From a virus, in the IMG/VR virus record IMGVR_UViG_3300034523_000184, positions 1 through 39,031 of that record: 39,031 nt of DNA; one strand, 5' to 3'. A program made the position numbers and the translations under genes. This document shows positions 1 to 37,399 of the stretch, piece after piece. The notes under the pieces were generated by a model. It made no database searches. It was not told where the DNA came from and was given only the letters and a program-made list of their open reading frames with translations. Each line of letters opens with the position of its first letter. Positions within the stretch are counted from its first letter, which is position 1.

Positions 1-1
1 G

Positions 2-178
2 GAGCTGAACCTGCGCCTGTTGTTCGAGGCACCGACCCTGCAGGGTTTTGCCGCACAGGTCGCGCACCTGCAACAGGACGGCGGGGTGGCTCAAGGGGCC
101 ATCCGCGCCTTGCCTGCGCACGACGATGATGCGCGGCGCGAAAAATGGAATGGAGTTGTTGAGATAAATCGAATTTGA
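2..178 (+). pseudogene. NRPS fragment: end of a thiolation (carrier) domain, interrupted by the prophage
   Basis: The + strand frame starting at base 2 reads ELNLRLLFEAPTLQGFAAQV, the typical last helix region of an NRPS peptidyl-carrier domain (FEAPT...A), followed by a linker ending ALPAHDD. The frame then runs into a stop at 176-178. The matching downstream part of the gene, the start of a condensation domain, is at the other end of the window in the same frame. Host coding sequence probably ends near 126, so the last codons (about DARREKWNGVVEINRI) would be prophage DNA read through. The product would be a synthetase truncated at a module boundary. Pyoverdine-type synthetases of Pseudomonas have similar sequences, but the peptide made cannot be told from this fragment. 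Confidence 0.85.
121..126. repeat. Target-site duplication, left copy (CGACGA)
   Basis: CGACGA here is repeated at 38908-38913, within an 8-bp identity CACGACGA (119-126 and 38906-38913). Immediately inside lie TG (127-128) and CA (38906-38907), the usual termini of Mu/IS21-type elements. Removing the prophage and one repeat copy restores an open NRPS frame reading RALPAHDELPQSLAQNRLW, a plausible carrier-to-condensation linker. Duplication length (5, 6 or up to 8 bp) is not certain. Confidence 0.6.
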
Positions 179-202
179 ATCTGTTGCAGTGGCTGCAACA
201 GA
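127..202. repeat. Prophage left end with transposase-site-like motifs
   Basis: Starting at TG (127), this end contains TGAGATAAATC (160-170) and AGTGGCTGCAA (188-198). Both 11-mers recur inverted at the right end (38887-38897 and 38817-38827). Inverted motifs at unequal distances from the two termini are what is expected of end sites bound by a Mu-type transposase. The first bases, TGATGCGCGGCGCGAAAAA, also resemble the Mu right end as I remember it (TGAAGCGGCGCACGAAAAA); this should be checked against a reference. Confidence 0.6.
180..202 (-). terminator. Perfect 10-bp inverted repeat after the reverse transcriptase gene
   Basis: TCTGTTGCAG-TGG-CTGCAACAGA forms a perfect 10-bp stem with a 3-base loop, 37 bases beyond the stop of the reverse transcriptase gene on the - strand. 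It could end the leftward late transcript before the host gene. It lacks a clear U-tract (TTCAAATT follows on the - strand) and it overlaps the end motif AGTGGCTGCAA, so it may instead, or also, be a transposase site. Confidence 0.45.
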
Positions 203-238
203 ATAACGGAATTGCGGCCTTCCGTGACCGCTTGAGAC

Positions 239-1288
239 TTAAAGCCTTTCTGACGCAGCACTTCCTCTTACCAGCCTCAGGTCACCCAGCACGCCAATGA
301 CAGTGCGACGCGCATCGCAGTGCTTCGCGTAGGCCAGGAAGCTGCACACTCTCTGCCTCACATGCTTCTGATCTACCAACCCAGCTCGATACCTCAAGCT
401 CAGCGTCCTGAAGGACGCCCTCGCACGCTTGATGTTCCGCTTGCGCGGCAGAATGTGAGTGGGCCAGATGCGGTAACCGCAGAAGTCCAGCCCGCGCTGC
501 CAGGGGTGGATCGCCGTCTTTGGGTTAAGCTCCAGGCTCAACCCTTCAACTACTGATGCCAGATCACCCAGGATGGATGCTGCTGACGCCTTGTTGGGCA
601 ACACCGCTATGAAGTCATCCATGTACCGCACGTAGTGCTTGATACCTAAGTCATCCTTGGCCACATGATCCAGACGGTTTAGCAGGATGTTCGCCCCGAG
701 CTGACTGGTGAGCGCCCCAACCGGCAGGCCGACGCCGGTCTCGTTGCCATAGCCACAGATGATCTGCTGCCATAGCCACAATACATCTCGGTCGGAGATG
801 GTCCGCGAGATCTCTCCAAGCAGCACGCTATGCCTAATACTGGCGAAGAACTTGCTGATATCAGCCTTGAGCACGTAAACCTCTGGCCCATGGTTACGCT
901 TGGCTACTCGGATGAAGCGCTGAGCACGCGCCACAGCAGCCTGAGTACCCATCCCTACGCGGCAAGCGTAGGAGTCGGAGATAAACTTACGCTCGAATAT
1001 CGGGTTAACCACGCGCACCAGCGCGTGATGGATGACGCGATCTTCGAACGGAGGTGCCTGTATCAGGCGTAGCTTGGGCTCCTTGACGACAAATTCACGA
1101 GGCTTGCCAGGCGCCCAGCTTTTCCATAGAAGGTGGTTTTGCAGATTAACCAGGTTCTCTTCAACGTTCGCCGAGAAACGCAGTACAGAGGAGCGATCGC
1201 GCTTGCCGCGCCGCGCCTCTAGGTAGGCCTGATATAGGTTATCGAAGTCGGTTATCTGGCCCCAGAGGCCAGTGGTGGTGATAGGCAC
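239..1288 (-). CDS. DGR reverse transcriptase
   Basis: A 349-residue reverse transcriptase that should copy the template-repeat RNA into adenine-mutagenised cDNA for transfer into the fibre gene. Visible motifs are the first catalytic Asp in KADISKFF (D143), the DGR-type GLPVGALTSQ (187-196; Ser-Gln in place of the retroviral Gln-Gly) and the catalytic YMDD (222-225). LNPKT and GLDFCGYRI follow in the thumb-proximal region. The length suits DGR enzymes, and there is no group II intron maturase or HNH domain. It is the last gene of the leftward late block, after the template repeat and Avd gene. A retron is unlikely because the template repeat has a matching variable repeat in a lectin-fold gene. 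All key residues are intact. Confidence 0.95.
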   Translation of the reverse strand: MPITTTGLWGQITDFDNLYQAYLEARRGKRDRSSVLRFSANVEENLVNLQNHLLWKSWAPGKPREFVVKEPKLRLIQAPPFEDRVIHHALVRVVNPIFERKFISDSYACRVGMGTQAAVARAQRFIRVAKRNHGPEVYVLKADISKFFASIRHSVLLGEISRTISDRDVLWLWQQIICGYGNETGVGLPVGALTSQLGANILLNRLDHVAKDDLGIKHYVRYMDDFIAVLPNKASAASILGDLASVVEGLSLELNPKTAIHPWQRGLDFCGYRIWPTHILPRKRNIKRARASFRTLSLRYRAGLVDQKHVRQRVCSFLAYAKHCDARRTVIGVLGDLRLVRGSAASERL

Positions 1289-1588
1289 AACATAAGCCTT
1301 AGCCCTCGCCGAGGGCGGAAAATTAGGGCGGGCACCGCCACATTCCCCGAAGGTACTAGCCGCGACGCCCTATAAATCTTTGACTACATGGTCTGGAGAG
1401 GGGCTCCAAAGGAAGCGCGCTGGACATAGGCCCTTGAGCCTAATGCCTTCTGGCGATAATCGTTTGCGAGGCGGCCGCCGACATTCGTGTTCGCGTTCGA
1501 CGCGGCGTTGTTGACGTTCAGATAGAACAGCCCGGCGTTCGAGCCGTTGCCGTAGTTGCCACCGTAATAAGCCTCCCCCCAATGCTCT
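1289..1588 (-). ncRNA. DGR template RNA region (Avd end - TR - spacer)
   Basis: This 300-base stretch between the Avd and reverse transcriptase genes has no convincing gene. It holds the template repeat (1463-1565) and a spacer of about 175 bases leading to the reverse transcriptase start. In the Bordetella phage BPP-1 system, the RNA spanning the end of avd, TR and the spacer is folded and bound by the RT-Avd complex and primes cDNA synthesis. The same order here suggests the same role. An open frame exists on the - strand through the repeat (1370-1582), but it is not in the frame of the variable protein and has no recognisable product. Confidence 0.7.
1463..1565 (-). repeat. DGR template repeat (TR)
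   Basis: These 103 bases match 2900-3002 with 90 identities and no gaps. On the - strand, 12 of the 13 differences are at TR adenines; the exception, at 1527, is T in TR and G in VR. Read in the fibre frame, TR has Asn codons (AAC or AAT) at 1555, 1546, 1537, 1516, 1510, 1507, 1495, 1489 and 1483 (lowest base of each codon), and all nine encode a different residue in VR. The last 21 bases of the 3' end (1463-1483) are identical and GC-rich, like an initiation-of-mutagenic-homing region. Weak similarity continues to about 1573 (Tyr-Tyr versus Phe-His codons), where differences are no longer adenine-biased, so the active repeat probably stops near 1565. Confidence 0.95.
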
Positions 1589-1945
1589 TTATTTCTTAAC
1601 CGGTGCAGGGCCTTCGTGCTTGATCCATGCGCCTACGATGCGCCCGATCTCATTGACGTGCCGCATCCAGACATCAAGGCGATGAGTGTTGATATAAGAA
1701 AGCCGGTGCGCCTTACGCACCAAGTGGCGGAATACTTCGATCTCTACGTCCAGATCAAACAGTGCCGCAGCTTTCTGGCGGCGCTTCCAAGCCACCACCG
1801 TCAGCCGCAGGAGATGATTCGTTACAGCCCGGAGTTCCGAGCAAAGCAGGTGCCGCTCAAGCTTGGGGAACTGGTGCAGCACGGTGTGCGTGTAGGCATC
1901 CAGCTCTTCAAGCTTGGTCAGCAGATTCAAATGGACATCACTCAC
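1589..1945 (-). CDS. avd: Avd-like accessory variability determinant
   Basis: A 118-residue, basic, all-helical protein with the pattern of the Avd four-helix-bundle family (about 120 residues). Its N-terminal part reads LLTKLEELDAYTHTVLHQFP, followed by KLERHLLCSELR, and LVRKAHRLSYINTHRLDVW lies in the second half. In BPP-1, Avd is a pentameric barrel that binds the reverse transcriptase and template RNA and is essential for retrohoming. The start is GTG (1943-1945), overlapping the stop of the upstream membrane-protein gene as GTGA, which implies translational coupling. It lies directly upstream of the template repeat, as in the canonical avd-TR-RT order. The family call rests on length, composition and context. 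Confidence 0.88.
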   Translation of the reverse strand: MSDVHLNLLTKLEELDAYTHTVLHQFPKLERHLLCSELRAVTNHLLRLTVVAWKRRQKAAALFDLDVEIEVFRHLVRKAHRLSYINTHRLDVWMRHVNEIGRIVGAWIKHEGPAPVKK

Positions 1946-2253
1946 GCCGACATCTTCCCTTCATCTGCCTCGATATTGCTTTCGCAATGATTAGGCTCGA
2001 ACCAGTCCAGCAGCTTGCATAGCACGCAACCCCAACGCTTACCCTTGCGGGCTGCCTTACCTGCACGAGAACTGATCGTTTCGTCCTCACTGCCGCCGAA
2101 GGCGGTGTTGGCCAGTTGGTCGAACGACACACCCAGGCGCCAGGCCCGATCGCTGTTCCCCAATACCGCGAGGAGCATCCAGCACAATCCAACCAGGGCG
2201 ACAAACGCGCAGAGCAGAAACAAGGCCAGCCCTAGCGCCATACGCTTCACCAT
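1942..2253 (-). CDS. Small membrane protein within the DGR cassette
   Basis: A 103-residue protein with a long hydrophobic N-terminal segment (about residues 5-32), probably one long or two short membrane helices. A cytosolic tail follows with the sequence GKRWGCVLCKLLDWFEPNHC, which has three Cys and one His spaced like a possible metal site. I recall similar small proteins with this tail near tail-fibre genes of Pseudomonas prophages, without known function. It overlaps the preceding gene by 7 bases and the Avd gene by 4 bases, so the three are translated together. It may have no link with diversification. Confidence 0.75.
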   Translation of the reverse strand: MVKRMALGLALFLLCAFVALVGLCWMLLAVLGNSDRAWRLGVSFDQLANTAFGGSEDETISSRAGKAARKGKRWGCVLCKLLDWFEPNHCESNIEADEGKMSA

Positions 2254-2816
2254 ACAATGCCCGCCACTTCTTCCAGGGACTCAGCCTTGTCGAGCAGATC
2301 CTCGGCGGCTTGGCGTTTTCCGATGATTGCGCCCGAGTATGCGGCGTAGCCGACGGCTTTTGACTGTACACGACCCGCCAGATCCTCGACGGTCAAGCCG
2401 CGCACCTCGGCGATGGCAGAAAGCAGCGGCGTGGCCGCCTTCGGATCCAACTGCAGACCCGACGCCTCCTGCACCTGTTGCGGCCAGCTCTGCAGTTCAC
2501 CGGGCGGGTAAGTGCTGGTCAGGGCTGCCAAAGCCAACTCACAACCAGCGTTCAGCTCAACCAGCTTGGCCACCTTCGCGGCCTCCAGCTTGTGGGAGTC
2601 CGCAGCTGCGTATTTCAGCTCCCCCAGGTAAACGGTGTCACCCAAAGCGCAGGCGGGAACCTCGTCCGGCTCACCTGGCAGGATTACCGCGACAAACAAG
2701 CCGTCTTCACGGTAGTCGACCGGAACCGACCAGACACGAACCAAGGCGTCAGCCGAGACGAGCGGCAGTGTTACGGATGCGCCTAGCGCGCTCAGGATTC
2801 CATCTTCAATCTTCAT
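2247..2816 (-). CDS. Probable tail-fibre assembly chaperone
   Basis: A 189-residue acidic protein directly after the fibre gene. It has a good ribosome site (AGGAG, 7 bases before ATG). The N-terminal half is beta-rich and mentions a display of substituents (YREDGLFVAVILPGEPDEVP). The C-terminal half is helical and ends with LLDKAESLEEVAGIVW. Position after a fibre and the N-terminal beta, C-terminal helical layout suit a fibre-assembly chaperone of the DUF4376 kind, but I see no diagnostic motif. In BPP-1 the gene after the variable protein is avd, so this is an extra gene in the cassette. Confidence 0.55.
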   Translation of the reverse strand: MKIEDGILSALGASVTLPLVSADALVRVWSVPVDYREDGLFVAVILPGEPDEVPACALGDTVYLGELKYAAADSHKLEAAKVAKLVELNAGCELALAALTSTYPPGELQSWPQQVQEASGLQLDPKAATPLLSAIAEVRGLTVEDLAGRVQSKAVGYAAYSGAIIGKRQAAEDLLDKAESLEEVAGIVW

Positions 2817-2841
2817 AGCACTCTCCTAAAAAGCAAAGGGC

Positions 2842-2856
2842 GCCCGCTTGGCGGGC
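2842..2856 (-). terminator. Hairpin downstream of the variable repeat
   Basis: GCCCGC-TTG-GCGGGC forms a 6-bp GC stem with a 3-base loop, 43 bases past the end of VR and between the fibre and chaperone genes. On the - strand it is followed by GCCCTTTGCTTTTT, so it may be a partial intrinsic terminator that lowers expression of the genes beyond the fibre. DGRs such as BPP-1 also have a hairpin or cruciform just past the homing region that stimulates target recognition; this one lies farther from the repeat than in BPP-1. Confidence 0.5.
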
Positions 2857-2892
2857 TAGCCCAAAACAACATGACTCAAGTCACAGGACCCA

Positions 2893-5454
2893 TCACACCT
2901 TTGCGAGGCGGCCGCCGACACTCGTGTACGCGTCCGACGCGGCGTAGCTGACGCCCAGATAGACCAGCCCGGCGATCGAGCCGGAGCCGTAGGAGCCACC
3001 GTGGAACGCCACACAATTGGCGCTACCGTAGAAGTAATCGCCATAACTGCCATTGCTTGCCGCCGAATCAGCCGTAGCCGCAGCGAACATGTCGCGCAGG
3101 TCGTAATTTGCCCCCGCATCCTCAGCCATGGTCACCGGGTAGCCGTTAGCAGGAACGGTTCGAGTCGTGGTCTGGTAGGTCTTGTTCCCGTTTCGATCCC
3201 AAACAATGAACCTGCTCGATGCATCGGTCTGCAGGCCATCAACCATTTGGAAGACGTTGCCCCACAGCCCGACGATGCCTCGCCAAGTAGCTTGCGCAAC
3301 CGTAGCGCTATCGACCGCCTGCACAGCGCTGGTGCTGACGTTGCCTTGGCCGATGAGCGCTTGAGAGTCGGCACCACCCATTTCGATCATCGCTAGCGTC
3401 TGGATTGCTGACAGTTGGTAGATCGACCACAACGCAAAACCGCTGACGCCCGCCGTGTTGCGCGCAGCTGCGCGGGCCTGCATGGTCGGAAAGTCGATAC
3501 TGGCCAGAGGCATCAGGCCTGGCTTGGAGCCGAGCTTTGCGCCGTCAGTCGTGCCCTGGTATTTGCCCACCCAGAACTGCGCGAGATCCGCGCCCGCATT
3601 CTTGAATGCTGGGTGCAAGGTGAAGCCTGCCGCTGGCTGGTCGGAAATCCATACCGCCTTCTTGCCGACGTTCGCTCCAGAGGCAATGGTTCCGCGCTTC
3701 ACATAGAAGGCAGGGATTCTGACCATGTTCTGGCCGTCGACCACTTGATCCTGAATCGCGCCGTATGTGGCGTGCGAACTGAAAAACGATGCGTCCGTCA
3801 CCTTGGTTGCGCCGTTTTCATCCACGCGAGCCCAGGTGCCAGCGCCGCCGCCCGTGGCTAGCATCGCAATGCCGATCACGTTGGCGAACTGCGCCTTGGT
3901 GGTGATCTTGCTTTCGGTCGACCACTCCGACCAGCCCTTGGCGGTGCCCTGATGGCGCACCTGCAGGTAATAGCTCAGCTGACCTGGCAGCAACTTGCCA
4001 ACAGGCACTACCACCGTCAGCTTGTTCACCGCGTCGGTACCGCTATCCCATGCGGGGGCTGCATAAGTACCTGCCGCCGTGCGAATCCGCCATTGGCTGG
4101 CCGCATGCGTATCTGCGCCGCCCGAAACGACAAAGGCCGAACTGGTCAGCGTTGGCTGCTCAGGCACGTCGACGGCGTTTGCGGCAGGTCCGGTGATGCT
4201 AGGCGCAGCTACATATACGAACGAGGCGGCCGTGGCAAAGCTGGAAACAGCCGAATAATCCGACCACAAGCCCGCCACGTCCTGGACGCGAGCACGCCAG
4301 TAATAAGTCGTTCCAGCGACCAGCACGGCAGCAGGCAAGGCATACGACAGCCCGGAGCCGAGCACGCCAGAGTCATGCAGGATCGACACAAAGGCGGCAG
4401 TCGTCGACAACTGGAATTGCACAGCGGCCTGCGTGTTGCCAGATGGCGAGCTGTAGCCCGTCAAGGCCAGTGTTGGACGCTCCATCACCCCAGCTGCAGC
4501 GGCGGCAGGCGTGCTGATCAGCGGCGTTGCCGGGCGCAGATCCGGGTTGATAAAGCCGCCCAGGCCGGTCGGCGTGCCCAGGGCCACCAGGTGGGCAATG
4601 CTCATTGCCTCGCCCGAGATGTCGAGCCGCAGCCAGCCATCACCGCGCATCGGCAGGATGTATTCGTAGTCGGCGTAGCCAGTCGGGATATCGCCATCGG
4701 TACGGCGCAACGACCAGCCGGTTTCTTTCCACGTCGGCTGGTAGCCGTCGCGGTAATACAGGCGGGCCATGCCCGAGTTGAGCGAGCGGCGAATCACGAC
4801 CGCGCCACCGGCAGTGTCGGTGCCGATATTGACCGAACGAGTCAGGTAGATATCGCCCGGCATGGCAGCGGCGCGGGAAGCGCCCAGCACCTTGATGCTG
4901 GAGCGACGCAGAGTTGCTGATGGGCCCCAGTCGCGTGACAGGTTGGCCGCGAGACGGATGCGGGCCGCTGACAGTACGGTTTGCACTTGCACCAGGGCCG
5001 ATGCCGGGGCCGGGTCGCCGTTGGCATCAACCGCAGCCGGATCACTTAGGACATAAAACTCGCCAGGGCGCAGCTGGGCCGTGGACGCCAGATCGATAGA
5101 GTCATCGCCGTTGACGCCCTGGACAACAGTGATCGGCTCCAGATCGATCAGCGTGTAGCCAGGAACGAACATTTCAAAGCGCACTACGTTGTTGCGGTAC
5201 AGCCAGTCGAGATCAACTGCCTTTTGCACCGAGACGGCGCTCGACGACTCAACGTCGCCAAGGCGCTCATCCAGCGAGTCGATGGCCAGATCCGCTGCGG
5301 CCTTGTTATCGCCAACTGCCTTATTAATAGCTGCGTCATTGTCCAGCAGCGCCTGGTGAATCGGATTCCACGTGTCCGGGTGGGCGACACTGGAGGTTGT
5401 CAGCGCCGGTACGCTGGCGGAGAAAACCGGATTTGGACTTGGGGTCAACGGCAT
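2893..5454 (-). CDS. DGR-diversified tail fibre with C-type-lectin-like tip (receptor-binding protein)
   Basis: An 853-residue fibre that should bind the host receptor at the tail tip. About residues 1-120 form an N-terminal attachment and coil part (DERLGDVESSSAV). A beta-rich region follows, then two fibronectin-III-like repeats at about 330-410 (TTYYWRARVQDVAGLWSDYS) and 417-522 (LSYYLQVRHQGTAKGWSEWS). The C-terminal 330 residues (523-853) form a formylglycine-enzyme/C-type-lectin fold like DGR variable proteins: GLWGNVFQMVDGL (729-741) matches the GN-WEW-DG signature, and GGSYGSGS starts the variable segment. Codons under diversification lie in the last 33 residues. It is preceded by the tail-collar and gpI-like genes. 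Two GN motif positions are Phe and Gln rather than Trp and Glu, as is common among these proteins. Confidence 0.93.
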   Translation of the reverse strand: MPLTPSPNPVFSASVPALTTSSVAHPDTWNPIHQALLDNDAAINKAVGDNKAAADLAIDSLDERLGDVESSSAVSVQKAVDLDWLYRNNVVRFEMFVPGYTLIDLEPITVVQGVNGDDSIDLASTAQLRPGEFYVLSDPAAVDANGDPAPASALVQVQTVLSAARIRLAANLSRDWGPSATLRRSSIKVLGASRAAAMPGDIYLTRSVNIGTDTAGGAVVIRRSLNSGMARLYYRDGYQPTWKETGWSLRRTDGDIPTGYADYEYILPMRGDGWLRLDISGEAMSIAHLVALGTPTGLGGFINPDLRPATPLISTPAAAAAGVMERPTLALTGYSSPSGNTQAAVQFQLSTTAAFVSILHDSGVLGSGLSYALPAAVLVAGTTYYWRARVQDVAGLWSDYSAVSSFATAASFVYVAAPSITGPAANAVDVPEQPTLTSSAFVVSGGADTHAASQWRIRTAAGTYAAPAWDSGTDAVNKLTVVVPVGKLLPGQLSYYLQVRHQGTAKGWSEWSTESKITTKAQFANVIGIAMLATGGGAGTWARVDENGATKVTDASFFSSHATYGAIQDQVVDGQNMVRIPAFYVKRGTIASGANVGKKAVWISDQPAAGFTLHPAFKNAGADLAQFWVGKYQGTTDGAKLGSKPGLMPLASIDFPTMQARAAARNTAGVSGFALWSIYQLSAIQTLAMIEMGGADSQALIGQGNVSTSAVQAVDSATVAQATWRGIVGLWGNVFQMVDGLQTDASSRFIVWDRNGNKTYQTTTRTVPANGYPVTMAEDAGANYDLRDMFAAATADSAASNGSYGDYFYGSANCVAFHGGSYGSGSIAGLVYLGVSYAASDAYTSVGGRLAKV
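2900..3002 (-). repeat. DGR variable repeat (VR) in the fibre gene
   Basis: The last 35 codons or so of the fibre gene. Against TR, the substituted residues are S821, S824, I827, V831, G834, S836, Y837, D841, Y843 and S845. Nine of these replace TR-encoded Asn; V831 replaces Phe through the single non-adenine change. The final bases, encoding VGGRLA before the stop, are identical to TR and set the fixed 3' boundary. Confidence 0.95.
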
Positions 5455-5465
5455 GACGGTGTTCC

Positions 5466-5831
5466 TCAGTATTCAAAATCAAGATCGAGTTCGATCTCGC
5501 TGGTGGACTCGAACTCTTTTGGCTTAACAACGCGGCGACCCATCAGTACGCCCGACTCGGTAAACACACCGAACTCACGCAGGACGTTGTCTGCAGCCAG
5601 GATTCCGCTCATGTTGCCCCTGACCGTCAGCACAGCGCCTGCCACGATGTTGGTCACGGGCACGCGGGCGAACTCGGCCGCGAGGGCGACGTCTTCGTCC
5701 GGCGAATACGCCTTGCTACCCGACCCGAAGGCCATCCAGGCGGCTTTGGAAATGGCTGCACCAGTTGCGGCGCTAACCGCGACCTGGTGCCGGTAGGCCA
5801 GCGTGGTGGGTATGGCGGTCGGGTTGCTCAT
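5466..5831 (-). CDS. Tail-collar-fibre-like protein
   Basis: A 121-residue protein similar in pattern to the N-terminal domain of P2-type fibre proteins (tail-collar fibre family). It has a small-residue-rich start, FGSGSKAY, an EFARVPVTNI segment, then REFGVFTESGVLMGRRVV and an acidic end LDLDFEY. In P2 this domain is fused to gpH and joins the fibre to the baseplate. Here it is a separate gene just before the diversified fibre and overlaps the gpI-like gene by 4 bases. It likely forms the connector between baseplate and fibre. Confidence 0.65.
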   Translation of the reverse strand: MSNPTAIPTTLAYRHQVAVSAATGAAISKAAWMAFGSGSKAYSPDEDVALAAEFARVPVTNIVAGAVLTVRGNMSGILAADNVLREFGVFTESGVLMGRRVVKPKEFESTSEIELDLDFEY

Positions 5832-6958
5832 AGCGGTTCCTGTGTCGTTATGCCGTTGTGTTTAACGCGCAGGGTGGCGCGGAATCTGATGTTTGGTCCG
5901 CCCAGTTCGCCGCCCAGCAGCCAGGTGCCGTCGAGACGATGCAGGCCGACGCGGCCGAGCTGGGCATCGGCAAGGCTTCGGCCTTCGTCCATCGGCCAGC
6001 CCTGAAGTGTTTGGATGCCCAGATCCCAGCGGCCATCCAGCGCACGAAAGCGATCGCCTAAGAGGACCGGCTCAGAAGCACGCGCCCCGCCCATGGCCAT
6101 GGCTGCACGCAGCGTGATCTTTTGGTGGGTGGTGATATGGCTGTTGTCCAGGGTCGCGCCGGTCGGCGTGTGCCCATTGAGGAGCCGCCCATTAAGGGAC
6201 CAGCTACCGTCGAGCAACACGGCGGCATATCCACCGTTGAGCTTCCAGCAACCATCCAGCGTGCGGCGCGCTGCAGGCTGGAACCGCTGGCACTTGGAGT
6301 ACTTCAAACGCAGGCGTGCAGCCATCGACTTGATGGTGATCCGCGAATCGAACCTGGCCTGCAGCGCGATGATGATGCCGACCAGCTCGTCACGAGTTGG
6401 CGCGTAGGCCTCTGCGACCTGGCGAATTCGTTTCTGTTGGTCGCGAGACCAGTCGCCTTCGGAGGCGTTGAGACGGATCGCGTATTGGGCCCAGTGGCTC
6501 ATGGCAATGCGCTTCATGACTTGGCCGTTGATGCCGGTCGCGGGCGGCGTGAGACTGACGCTGCCATCGAGCAGCCAGGTGCCATCCAGGGTCTTGCCAC
6601 CTGCAGCAATCCATTCGGCCTGGTAAGTCTTCTGCTCGATCAGCTCTAGGACCGGATAACCGATGGTGGCCAGCGCCTGCTTGACTGCCCAGGGCGTGCC
6701 TTTGTAGCGGTGCAGCATGATTGCGGTCTTGATCAGCGCTCGCCGGTCGTCATCGGACCTGGCCACCGGCCAAGTAGCCTCTTCCAGCATCGAAAACTGT
6801 TCGGCGAGGATCGGCAGCAGCGAAGGCGGCACCAGGTCGACCAGGTAGACGAGCATCGAGTTGAGATTGAGCCGCTGCAGGTTCTCGTTGAGCAGCTCAT
6901 TCAGCCAGACGAATCGTTCGTCACCGGCCAGTGCTGGCGGCAGCTGTTGATCAGCCAT
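5828..6958 (-). CDS. I: P2 gpI-like baseplate wedge protein with C-terminal LDG repeats
   Basis: The first 200 residues match the P2 tail protein I family: LPPALAGDERFVWL, then ATWPVARSDDDRRALIKTAIMLHRYKGTPWAVKQAL. This is the usual wedge component that carries the fibres. The rest, about 175 residues, is an extension with recurring LDGTWLLDGS-like units (LDGTWLLDG, LDGCWKLNG, LLDGSWSLNG, LDGRWDLG, LDGTWLLGG), probably a repetitive beta structure. I chose ATG at 6956-6958 (MADQQLPP), which overlaps the gpJ-like gene by 8 bases and has GCAGGT upstream. An earlier in-frame ATG at 6973 is possible. P2 gpI is about 176 residues, so the extension is additional. Confidence 0.85.
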   Translation of the reverse strand: MADQQLPPALAGDERFVWLNELLNENLQRLNLNSMLVYLVDLVPPSLLPILAEQFSMLEEATWPVARSDDDRRALIKTAIMLHRYKGTPWAVKQALATIGYPVLELIEQKTYQAEWIAAGGKTLDGTWLLDGSVSLTPPATGINGQVMKRIAMSHWAQYAIRLNASEGDWSRDQQKRIRQVAEAYAPTRDELVGIIIALQARFDSRITIKSMAARLRLKYSKCQRFQPAARRTLDGCWKLNGGYAAVLLDGSWSLNGRLLNGHTPTGATLDNSHITTHQKITLRAAMAMGGARASEPVLLGDRFRALDGRWDLGIQTLQGWPMDEGRSLADAQLGRVGLHRLDGTWLLGGELGGPNIRFRATLRVKHNGITTQEPL

Positions 6959-36089: not shown

Positions 36090-36708
36090 ATCCCAACAAA
36101 CAGCGGTACCGGTTGGCTTCTGGCAAGACGCCCAAGGCCGTATGGTTCCAGAAAGCCTGATCAAACCGATCGACATCGAGCGTGATCGGCTGGTTCGCCA
36201 ACTGGTGGGCTCCGCCAACAAGCTCAGCGGCGAATTGGCCAACCTTAAAGCCGCTGCATTCGGCGATATCGAGGCTTTTATTGAGCTGAGTGCCGAGCAG
36301 TACGGCATTGCACTTGGTGGAAAGAAGGGCAATGTCACCCTTTATAGCTTCGATGGCCGCTTTAAAATTCAGCGGTCAGTGCAGGAGTCGATCGCTTTCG
36401 ACGAAAGACTGCAGGCGGCACGCGCCCTGATCGACGAATGTCTGCGTGATTGGACTCAGGGAGCCCGCCCAGAGGTGGCCACACTGGCCAACGACGCATT
36501 CCGTACCGACTCCCAAGGCGAAATCCGCACCGCCCGCGTACTTGCGCTGCGTCGCCTGGATATCAAGGACGAACGCTGGCAGCGCGCCATGCAGGCGATC
36601 GGCGAAGCGTGCCAGGTGGTCGGCTCCAAGTCCTATATCCGCGTGTATGAGCGGATCGGTGATTCGGACCAGTACCGCGCCATCAGCCTTGATATCGCGG
36701 GGGTGTGA
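36082..36708 (+). CDS. DUF3164 family protein (Mu early region)
   Basis: A 208-residue protein of the DUF3164 type, common in the early region of Mu-like phages: FWQDAQGRMVPESLIKPIDIERDRLVRQLV, then KKGNVTLYSFDGRFKIQRSVQESIAFDERLQAARALIDECLRDWTQG. GTG at 36082 with TGAGG upstream is the best start; ATG at 36067 is possible. It is thought to be linked to replication or recombination but is uncharacterised. It is one base from the DUF2786 gene. Confidence 0.88.
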   Translation: MTKSQQTAVPVGFWQDAQGRMVPESLIKPIDIERDRLVRQLVGSANKLSGELANLKAAAFGDIEAFIELSAEQYGIALGGKKGNVTLYSFDGRFKIQRSVQESIAFDERLQAARALIDECLRDWTQGARPEVATLANDAFRTDSQGEIRTARVLALRRLDIKDERWQRAMQAIGEACQVVGSKSYIRVYERIGDSDQYRAISLDIAGV

Positions 36709-36709
36709 C

Positions 36710-37399
36710 ATGGAAGAGAACCGCATTCTCGACAAGATCAAAAAGTGCTTGGAGATGGCCAAGTCCAAAACCAGCAACCCTCATGAGGCTGAGACTGCGC
36801 TGCGCCAAGCACGCCTGCTGATGGAGAAATACAACCTGGAGCAAGGTGATGTTCTTGCCAGCATGGCGTGCGAGGTTTCAATACTCGCAGGCTCTGAAGG
36901 TCCGCCACCTGCATGGCGAGCTCGACTTGTGCAGGTTGCCGCGCTGGCCTTCGGCACCAAGGTGATCATTACCACCAGCAGGTTCGGAGCCGCACGTTTT
37001 CTCCTGATCGGCTGCTCAGCCGCACCAGAATTGACCGGTTACGCCTATCAAGTACTGGCCCGCCAGCTGCAAAAGGCGCGACGTGAGTACCTGGATACTC
37101 AGAAGCGCTGCAAACGATCCACGAAAGTGGCTCGCGGCGATGCATTTGCGAACGCCTGGATCGATGCGGTACTGATAAAAATCGATGCGTTTGCCGGGGT
37201 TGAGGACAATATCGCTGAGGCAATCGAAGCGTTTGTGAAGAAAAACCACCCAGAGCTGGAGAGTTTCGAAGTCAAGCGTCGAAAACTCAAGTCACGCGAT
37301 GAGGTTGCGGCAGATGCTGGCTATCAAGCGGGTCAGTCTGCCCAGCTGCACCAGGCGGTGAATCACCAGCCTCGTGCCCGTCTGACTGCAGGAGTCTGA
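36710..37399 (+). CDS. DUF2786 family protein
   Basis: A 229-residue protein. The N-terminal DUF2786 block reads NRILDKIKKCLEMAKSKTSNPHEAETALRQARLLMEKYNLEQGDV. The rest is helical with WRARLVQVAALAFGTKV and NAWIDAVLIKIDAF. Often found in phages and conjugative elements; biochemical role unknown. The longer frame from 36446 overlaps the DUF3164 gene and is rejected. Confidence 0.88.
   Translation: MEENRILDKIKKCLEMAKSKTSNPHEAETALRQARLLMEKYNLEQGDVLASMACEVSILAGSEGPPPAWRARLVQVAALAFGTKVIITTSRFGAARFLLIGCSAAPELTGYAYQVLARQLQKARREYLDTQKRCKRSTKVARGDAFANAWIDAVLIKIDAFAGVEDNIAEAIEAFVKKNHPELESFEVKRRKLKSRDEVAADAGYQAGQSAQLHQAVNHQPRARLTAGV

Follow-up and report, generated by a model that had tools for sequence, protein, structure and literature searches.

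The window (the whole stretch of DNA that was analysed, all 39,031 nucleotides of the viral record) holds a Mu-like transposable phage with a contractile tail. Its genes include those for the tape measure, tail sheath, head maturation protease, portal, and terminase. The plus strand also encodes a Mu-type transposase (phrog_310) as well as a DNA transposition protein (phrog_296). The host is likely to be a Pseudomonas, as the nearest reverse transcriptase (RT) among named genomes is from Pseudomonas antarctica (86% identical). The minus strand carries a diversity-generating retroelement (DGR), in the order fibre gene with the variable repeat (VR), two small ORFs, avd, the template repeat (TR), and RT, with TR placed 174 nt before RT (Table 1). 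The fibre gene is adjoined by genes for a P2-type tail protein I and a baseplate J protein. The fibre has an Ig-like domain (amino acids 327-409) and, at its C-terminus, a predicted C-type-lectin-fold domain.

Table 1. Features of the locus, in positions of the window
Feature	Positions	Strand	Basis
Tail fibre gene, DGR target, 853 aa	2893..5454	-	phrog_5302 tail protein, predicted fold
VR, fibre codons 818-852, 3' end of gene	2900..3002	-	repeat search, frame reading
TR, 87% identical to VR	1463..1565	-	repeat search; 12 of 13 mismatches at TR adenines
TR stretch holding nine AAY codons (VR 2920-2994)	1483..1557	-	frame reading
Codon 831, TR TTC (1525-1527) to VR GTC	2962..2964	-	derived in VR
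Probable IMH, GC-rich VR 3' end; IMH* counterpart at TR 1462-1482	2899..2919	-	conserved TR/VR discordance
Probable target-recognition hairpin, 6-bp stem and CAA loop, 3' of VR	2842..2856	-	inverted repeat
avd, accessory variability determinant, 118 aa	1589..1945	-	PF22296 bAvd, phrog_3206
DGR reverse transcriptase, 349 aa	239..1288	-	families, VGALTSQ and YMDD motifs
TR-to-RT spacer	1289..1462	-	conserved among relatives
Spacer stem-loop, probable piece of the DGR RNA	1422..1447	-	compensatory changes among relatives

The RT matches phrog_1423 (E = 1.9e-124) and Pfam's RVT_1. RTs of the DGR clade have the motifs [ILV]GxxxSQ and YxDD, and this RT has VGALTSQ at 190 and YMDD (within RYMDD) at 221. 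Its nearest solved relative is 8ub7 (E = 2.8e-49), in which an RT was deposited along with Avd, and which we take to be the RT of the BPP-1 DGR. The protein encoded by avd matches PF22296 (bAvd, E = 8.5e-24) and phrog_3206. Comparing it to PDB sequences with phmmer gave only weak matches (the best, to Bbp7 of BPP-1, had E = 0.15), so we base the assignment on Pfam and PHROGs.

The two small ORFs between the fibre gene and avd belong to families of unknown function. The 103-aa ORF (1942-2253, phrog_34710) has, by eye, a hydrophobic N-terminus, and the 189-aa ORF (2247-2816, phrog_2618) lies where a fibre assembly protein is often found. Positions 1-177 look by eye like the end of a plus-strand peptide-synthetase gene, and the phage may sit inserted in such a gene. 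In the early region, a plus-strand protein of unknown function (36446-37399) has DUF7168 and DUF2786 domains. Positions 1-6000 had no DNA similarity match among described phages, and we found no Rfam matches and no tRNA genes anywhere in the window.

The TR/VR pair and its rewriting among relatives

TR and VR form the only long and close direct repeat in the window (103 nt). They mismatch at 13 of 103 bases, and 12 of these mismatches are on the 25 adenines of TR (P = 3.8e-8 for at least 12 of 13, hypergeometric test). Among the changed adenines, 5 became T, 5 became G, and 2 became C. The other mismatch is a T to G change in codon 831 (F831V, TTC to GTC). Searching TR against the entire 39-kb record turned up just the known VR and no second target.

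We scanned two sets of loci for similar pairs. Set 1 had 161 loci plus the window, and 132 of these 162 sequences gave a TR/VR pair. The resulting list of 136 pairs, 130 of them with AAY codons, leaves out two copies of the window (L001 and L002) and minus-oriented pairs. We dropped the window, duplicates, pairs without AAY codons, ORFs shorter than 150 aa, and pairs in which VR lies downstream of TR, which left 115 other pairs. Set 2 was fetched separately, with 163 loci, five of which were removed as set-1 contigs, and gave 114 pairs (111 with AAY codons). In both sets, at least 70% of a pair's mismatches had to be at A, so absolute rates of change at other bases are biased low; the direction of changes between T and G should be unaffected. 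Loci L018, L121, L130, and L133 each have one TR and two VRs.

An ordinary gene duplication that diverged without directed mutagenesis would be compatible with 87% identity, but it is refuted by the adenine bias, both in this pair and in the 229 others. In those pairs, which were selected for adenine bias, 56% and 61% of A sites were changed (in sets 1 and 2), as compared to under 1% of non-A sites (in set 1). We see virtually no chance that TR and VR are a mere duplication.

In the fibre frame, TR has nine AAY codons (eight AAC and one AAT), and VR encodes other residues at all of them: S821, S824, I827, G834, S836, Y837, D841, Y843, and S845. The original prediction, which was made from the letters of this DNA, had described these nine recodings and had named V831 as the single remaining change, which is not at an adenine; the coordinates and residues are correct in the 853-aa frame. 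Its count of nine or ten variable residues was too low. TR has three further adenine codons in the tract, TAC822, TAT832, and ACG844, which are unaltered here (Y822, Y832, and T844) and are changed in relatives. This makes 12 amino-acid-changing codons and a theoretical repertoire of 15^9 x 4^3 = 2.46e12 protein variants. A tenth AAC, codon 852 (TR 1462-1464), mismatches VR at its third base, which is not an adenine.

The expectation that AAY sites never reach a stop codon was borne out: in the fibre frame, none of the adenine codons of TR is able to become a stop. The same holds for 107 of the 115 other pairs, and each of the other two frames of the minus strand has one stop-capable TR codon. 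The stop-free logic of AAY codons has already been published (PMC6328139, accessible in part).

It is not exceptional for all nine AAY codons to be recoded. When the window is counted in, the 130 set-1 pairs with AAY codons have 1173 such codons, of which 958 were recoded; across the 115 other pairs, the share was 82%. With a per-codon rate of 0.82, nine of nine would be expected with a probability of 0.16, or about 1 in 6, so this outcome is ordinary. Every AAY codon was recoded in 18 of the 115 de-duplicated pairs, in 12 of the 86 set-1 pairs with at least nine such codons, and in 20 of the 111 pairs from set 2. Selection for binding a receptor is not needed to explain the Ser and Tyr outcomes either, because in E. 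coli, BPP-1's RT converts AAC chiefly to Tyr, Ser, and Asp (accessible part of PMC12875486).

Across these pairs, Cys is nearly missing from AAY sites. There were 9 observed cases versus 60.7 expected in set 1 (L003-L161), and 11 versus 56.1 in set 2 (L163-L325), where the expected counts assume that the two mutated bases are independent. Leu, Tyr, and Gly are in excess over both sets. Either enzyme bias or selection could deplete Cys, and a frame control (AA at codon positions 2-3 and 3-1), which has just 15 sites, favoured neither. These data do make the question testable.

Comparing VR and TR across close relatives shows that VR has been rewritten repeatedly, probably by mutagenic retrohoming from TR. 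Six relatives (L085, L086, and L088-L091) have TRs that are identical over the 105 nt compared, and VRs that are 7 to 18 bases apart, with nearly all of the differences at TR adenines. For example, L085 and L088 differ at 13 bases of VR, all of them TR adenines, and at 13 of 500 bases upstream. Similarly, the window differs from P. antarctica (L003) and from viral contigs L082 and L083 at 1-2 bases of TR but at 14-18 bases of VR, 12-16 of which are TR adenines. When 22 VRs (including the window's) are placed in one gap-free register, between 6 and 10 types of residues occur at each of the nine sites (setting aside one undetermined base), and codons 822, 832, and 844 vary in some of them. The framework is nearly constant, and codons 819, 820, 825, 829, 833, and 847-853 are invariant.

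If this DGR were a relic, then VR would have been rewritten long ago and the system would now be silent, with the residues of VR fixed by drift and selection. The one non-adenine change (V831) could have accumulated since, or at, the last conversion. However, TR and VR agree at 77 of 78 non-adenine bases even though the upstream 500 nt differs at 82-96 positions from the three nearest relatives, which indicates recent conversion. Also, the reading frames of RT and avd are open, and the catalytic motif of RT is intact. We consider a relic to be improbable. The DGR may well be active at present; the point against this is that the record offers a single VR.

Two conserved discordances between TR and VR appear to mark the borders of conversion, which would leave them in place. 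At codon 852, TR has AAC and VR has AAG in all 22 members of the close set, which includes the window. At codon 818, on the 5' side, 21 of 22 VRs have CAC, as compared to just 1 of 22 TRs. The 3' end of VR ends with GCAAAG and that of TR with GCAAAC, and from the conserved discordance, these ends are probably the IMH and IMH*, respectively.

About 43 nt after VR, there is a GC-rich inverted repeat with a perfect 6-bp stem and a 3-nt CAA loop. Stems of at least 6 bp were found in 62 of 113 distinct VR flanks, versus a mean of 7.2 in shuffles, and the sequences of the stems vary between relatives with pairing kept. BPP-1-type hairpins have a 4-nt GRNA loop and a stem of 7-10 bp (PMC3240598, accessible in part). 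The window's hairpin has neither, and neither is needed for membership in the DGRs. Loops of C(A/G)A were found in 23 of the 113 flanks, chiefly in relatives of this RT, and GRNA loops in 30. The window's hairpin is followed by an outer GGGC/GCCC and a T-rich stretch, and it could also act as a terminator. In the alignment that takes in the TR-to-RT spacer (15 of 17 rows were used; L086 and L107 were left out), 39 pairs are predicted over the full stretch and 7 of them have compensatory changes, with the spacer stem-loop among the places where these occur.

The fibre tip

We modeled amino acids 509-853 of the fibre with AlphaFold2, using an alignment of 75 sequences (74 of the 93 listed relatives were used). 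The mean pLDDT was 93.7, and blocks over the variable region averaged 88 to 98. By VIA-align, the model is most similar to TaqVP (Z = 27.6, 250 residues at 2.5 A), followed by TvpA (15.4), Mtd (13.5-14.3), and formylglycine-generating enzymes, which have the same fold (about 13-14). TaqVP also has a profile match at E = 9e-91. In Pfam, the window's own C-terminal domain goes without a named fold; the FGE-sulfatase family matched 35 of the 75 aligned sequences. By its predicted fold, the C-terminus of the fibre is a C-type-lectin-fold DGR variable protein (the Mtd/TvpA/TaqVP class).

From the GG motif through the C-terminus, the fibre is in register with Mtd and TaqVP with no gaps. The nine sites correspond to positions 344, 347, 350, 357, 359, 360, 364, 366, and 368 of Mtd, all of which are AAC in the TR of BPP-1. 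Eight of them coincide with variable residues of TaqVP, which has nine such residues; the exception is S836. This agrees with the original prediction's lectin-like target, for which Mtd was the yardstick. It had also placed the sites along one loop. Instead, the model places them in two loops (821-824 and 841-845), at the end of a short helix (827), and in a strand (834-837).

An AlphaFold model had been proposed as the check on whether these residues share an exposed face. The model is confident and the sites are in register with known variable sites, and exposure is suggested by analogy: the variable residues of these DGR proteins are reported to be solvent-exposed and to form the binding site (accessible part of PMC6328139). 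By the register with Mtd and TaqVP, the nine sites are probably exposed at the surface of the fibre's tip, and the tip would bind a receptor and recognize the host. The 22 gap-free VRs are a clean comparative set, with nine variable sites, mostly constant neighbours, and the crystal structure of TaqVP as a template.

V831 and changes from T to G

In the close set, all 22 TRs encode Phe at codon 831, as do 21 of the 22 VRs; therefore, the change to Val arose in this VR. Drift or selection had been suggested as the cause. We add a third option, a directional T-to-G error by the RT.

Among the 115 pairs of set 1, 47 of 6045 non-A sites differ between TR and VR, and these include 18 T>G but just 3 G>T. 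Having found this excess in set 1, we set it down as a prediction before testing it on set 2 (114 pairs from new scans), where there were 22 T>G versus 8 G>T (P = 0.008, or 6e-4 if site-weighted). Over both sets (229 pairs), T>G is the largest non-adenine class inside the conversion tracts (40, versus 11 G>T), and C>T and T>C are balanced (17 versus 15). Seven of the events in set 2 share near-identical contexts; if we count distinct 9-mer contexts, there are 33 T>G versus 11 G>T (P = 6e-4). Also, an identical Phe-to-Val replacement occurs at the corresponding position in a separate DGR (L254).

The asymmetry between T>G and G>T favours a process that runs in one direction, from TR to VR, and the simplest such process would be the insertion of dC opposite U in the template. 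V831 would be a rarer error of the mutagenic RT at a template U, which we consider somewhat more likely than drift. More broadly, DGR RTs might have a second and weaker mutagenic channel, with dC inserted at template U, that turns T to G at about 1.3% of template T sites (versus changes at about 58% of A sites) and that produced both V831 and the Phe-to-Val change in L254. From these comparisons of sequences, we would put this at even odds. If the channel is real, then variation reaches past the adenine codons into scaffold positions.

Alternatively, V831 might have arisen in VR by plain point mutation or been selected there, independently of the retroelement's enzyme. V831 is a single event, and the identical change in L254 could also be read as selection. 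The silent changes from both sets are weak evidence by themselves (9 T>G versus 3 G>T, P = 0.07, unweighted), and the non-A rate for BPP-1 is quoted as 0-0.5% (PMC6642488, accessible in part). On the other hand, the excess of T>G over G>T (also by distinct contexts), the balance of C>T and T>C, and the recurrence of the excess in set 2 speak against this explanation. It is a serious contender that we would bet slightly against. In its accessible part, the same source, a survey of 948 DGRs, has thymine mostly replaced by cytosine, unlike our count within tracts. Our literature search, which had most subscription papers outside its reach, found no paper that describes a T>G class. Nothing in our analysis is more novel than the T>G signature, which is the point worth following, and these data make it testable whether non-adenine changes stem from the enzyme.

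The DGR in comparison with known systems

Overall, we think (with a probability of about 95%) that this Mu-like transposable phage has a complete DGR that rewrites the C-type-lectin tip of its fibre, where the nine AAY codons serve as variable sites that cannot turn into stops. The locus has an RT of the DGR clade, adenine-limited differences between TR and VR, Avd, an IMH and IMH* that differ (with putative functions), and a GC-rich hairpin beyond VR, and these features of its sequence class it as a DGR. RNA from TR would be copied by the error-prone RT together with Avd, with roughly half of the template adenines misread. The cDNA would then replace VR between the 3' border (codons 851/852) and the 5' border near codon 818, and TR would stay intact. 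With AAY codons placed as they are, mutation would alter surface residues of the tip and would never create a stop. One point against this explanation is the loop of the hairpin: it is CAA here, and in BPP-1 it was a GRNA tetraloop that mattered. We view the locus as a well-preserved further example of a known host-recognition device, not as a new device.

The DGR of the Bordetella phage BPP-1 (mtd, avd, TR, and brt) has the same order on one strand, target-avd-TR-RT, with its avd annotated as bbp7. The two RTs are 38.5% identical (over 80% of the query), and in the gap-free register, the nine AAY sites match 9 of the 10 AAC codons for Mtd. Both have a GC-rich 3' end and, beyond VR, a hairpin, whose loop here is CAA (3 nt) and not a GRNA tetraloop. 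The window also differs from BPP-1 in its Mu-like genome, in the two small ORFs between the target and avd, and in its 853-aa fibre with an Ig-like domain. For the target domain, the closest solved structure is TaqVP, from the DGR of a Thermus aquaticus prophage (PDB 5vf4). S836 is variable here and corresponds to Leu363 in TaqVP, and Y822 and T844, which have adenine codons here, replace the constant Trp349 and Trp371. Additional references, accessible in part, are PMC8144416, PMC4372165, and PMC10907252.

Chromohalobacter phage YPCBV-1 is likewise Mu-like, with bAvd and a DGR RT (PMC9769972, accessible in part). It has another host, and identity is low (39.3% for the RT). The closest systems are those of P. 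antarctica and the viral contigs L082 and L083, which share the fibre family, the nine AAY codons, and nearly all of TR.
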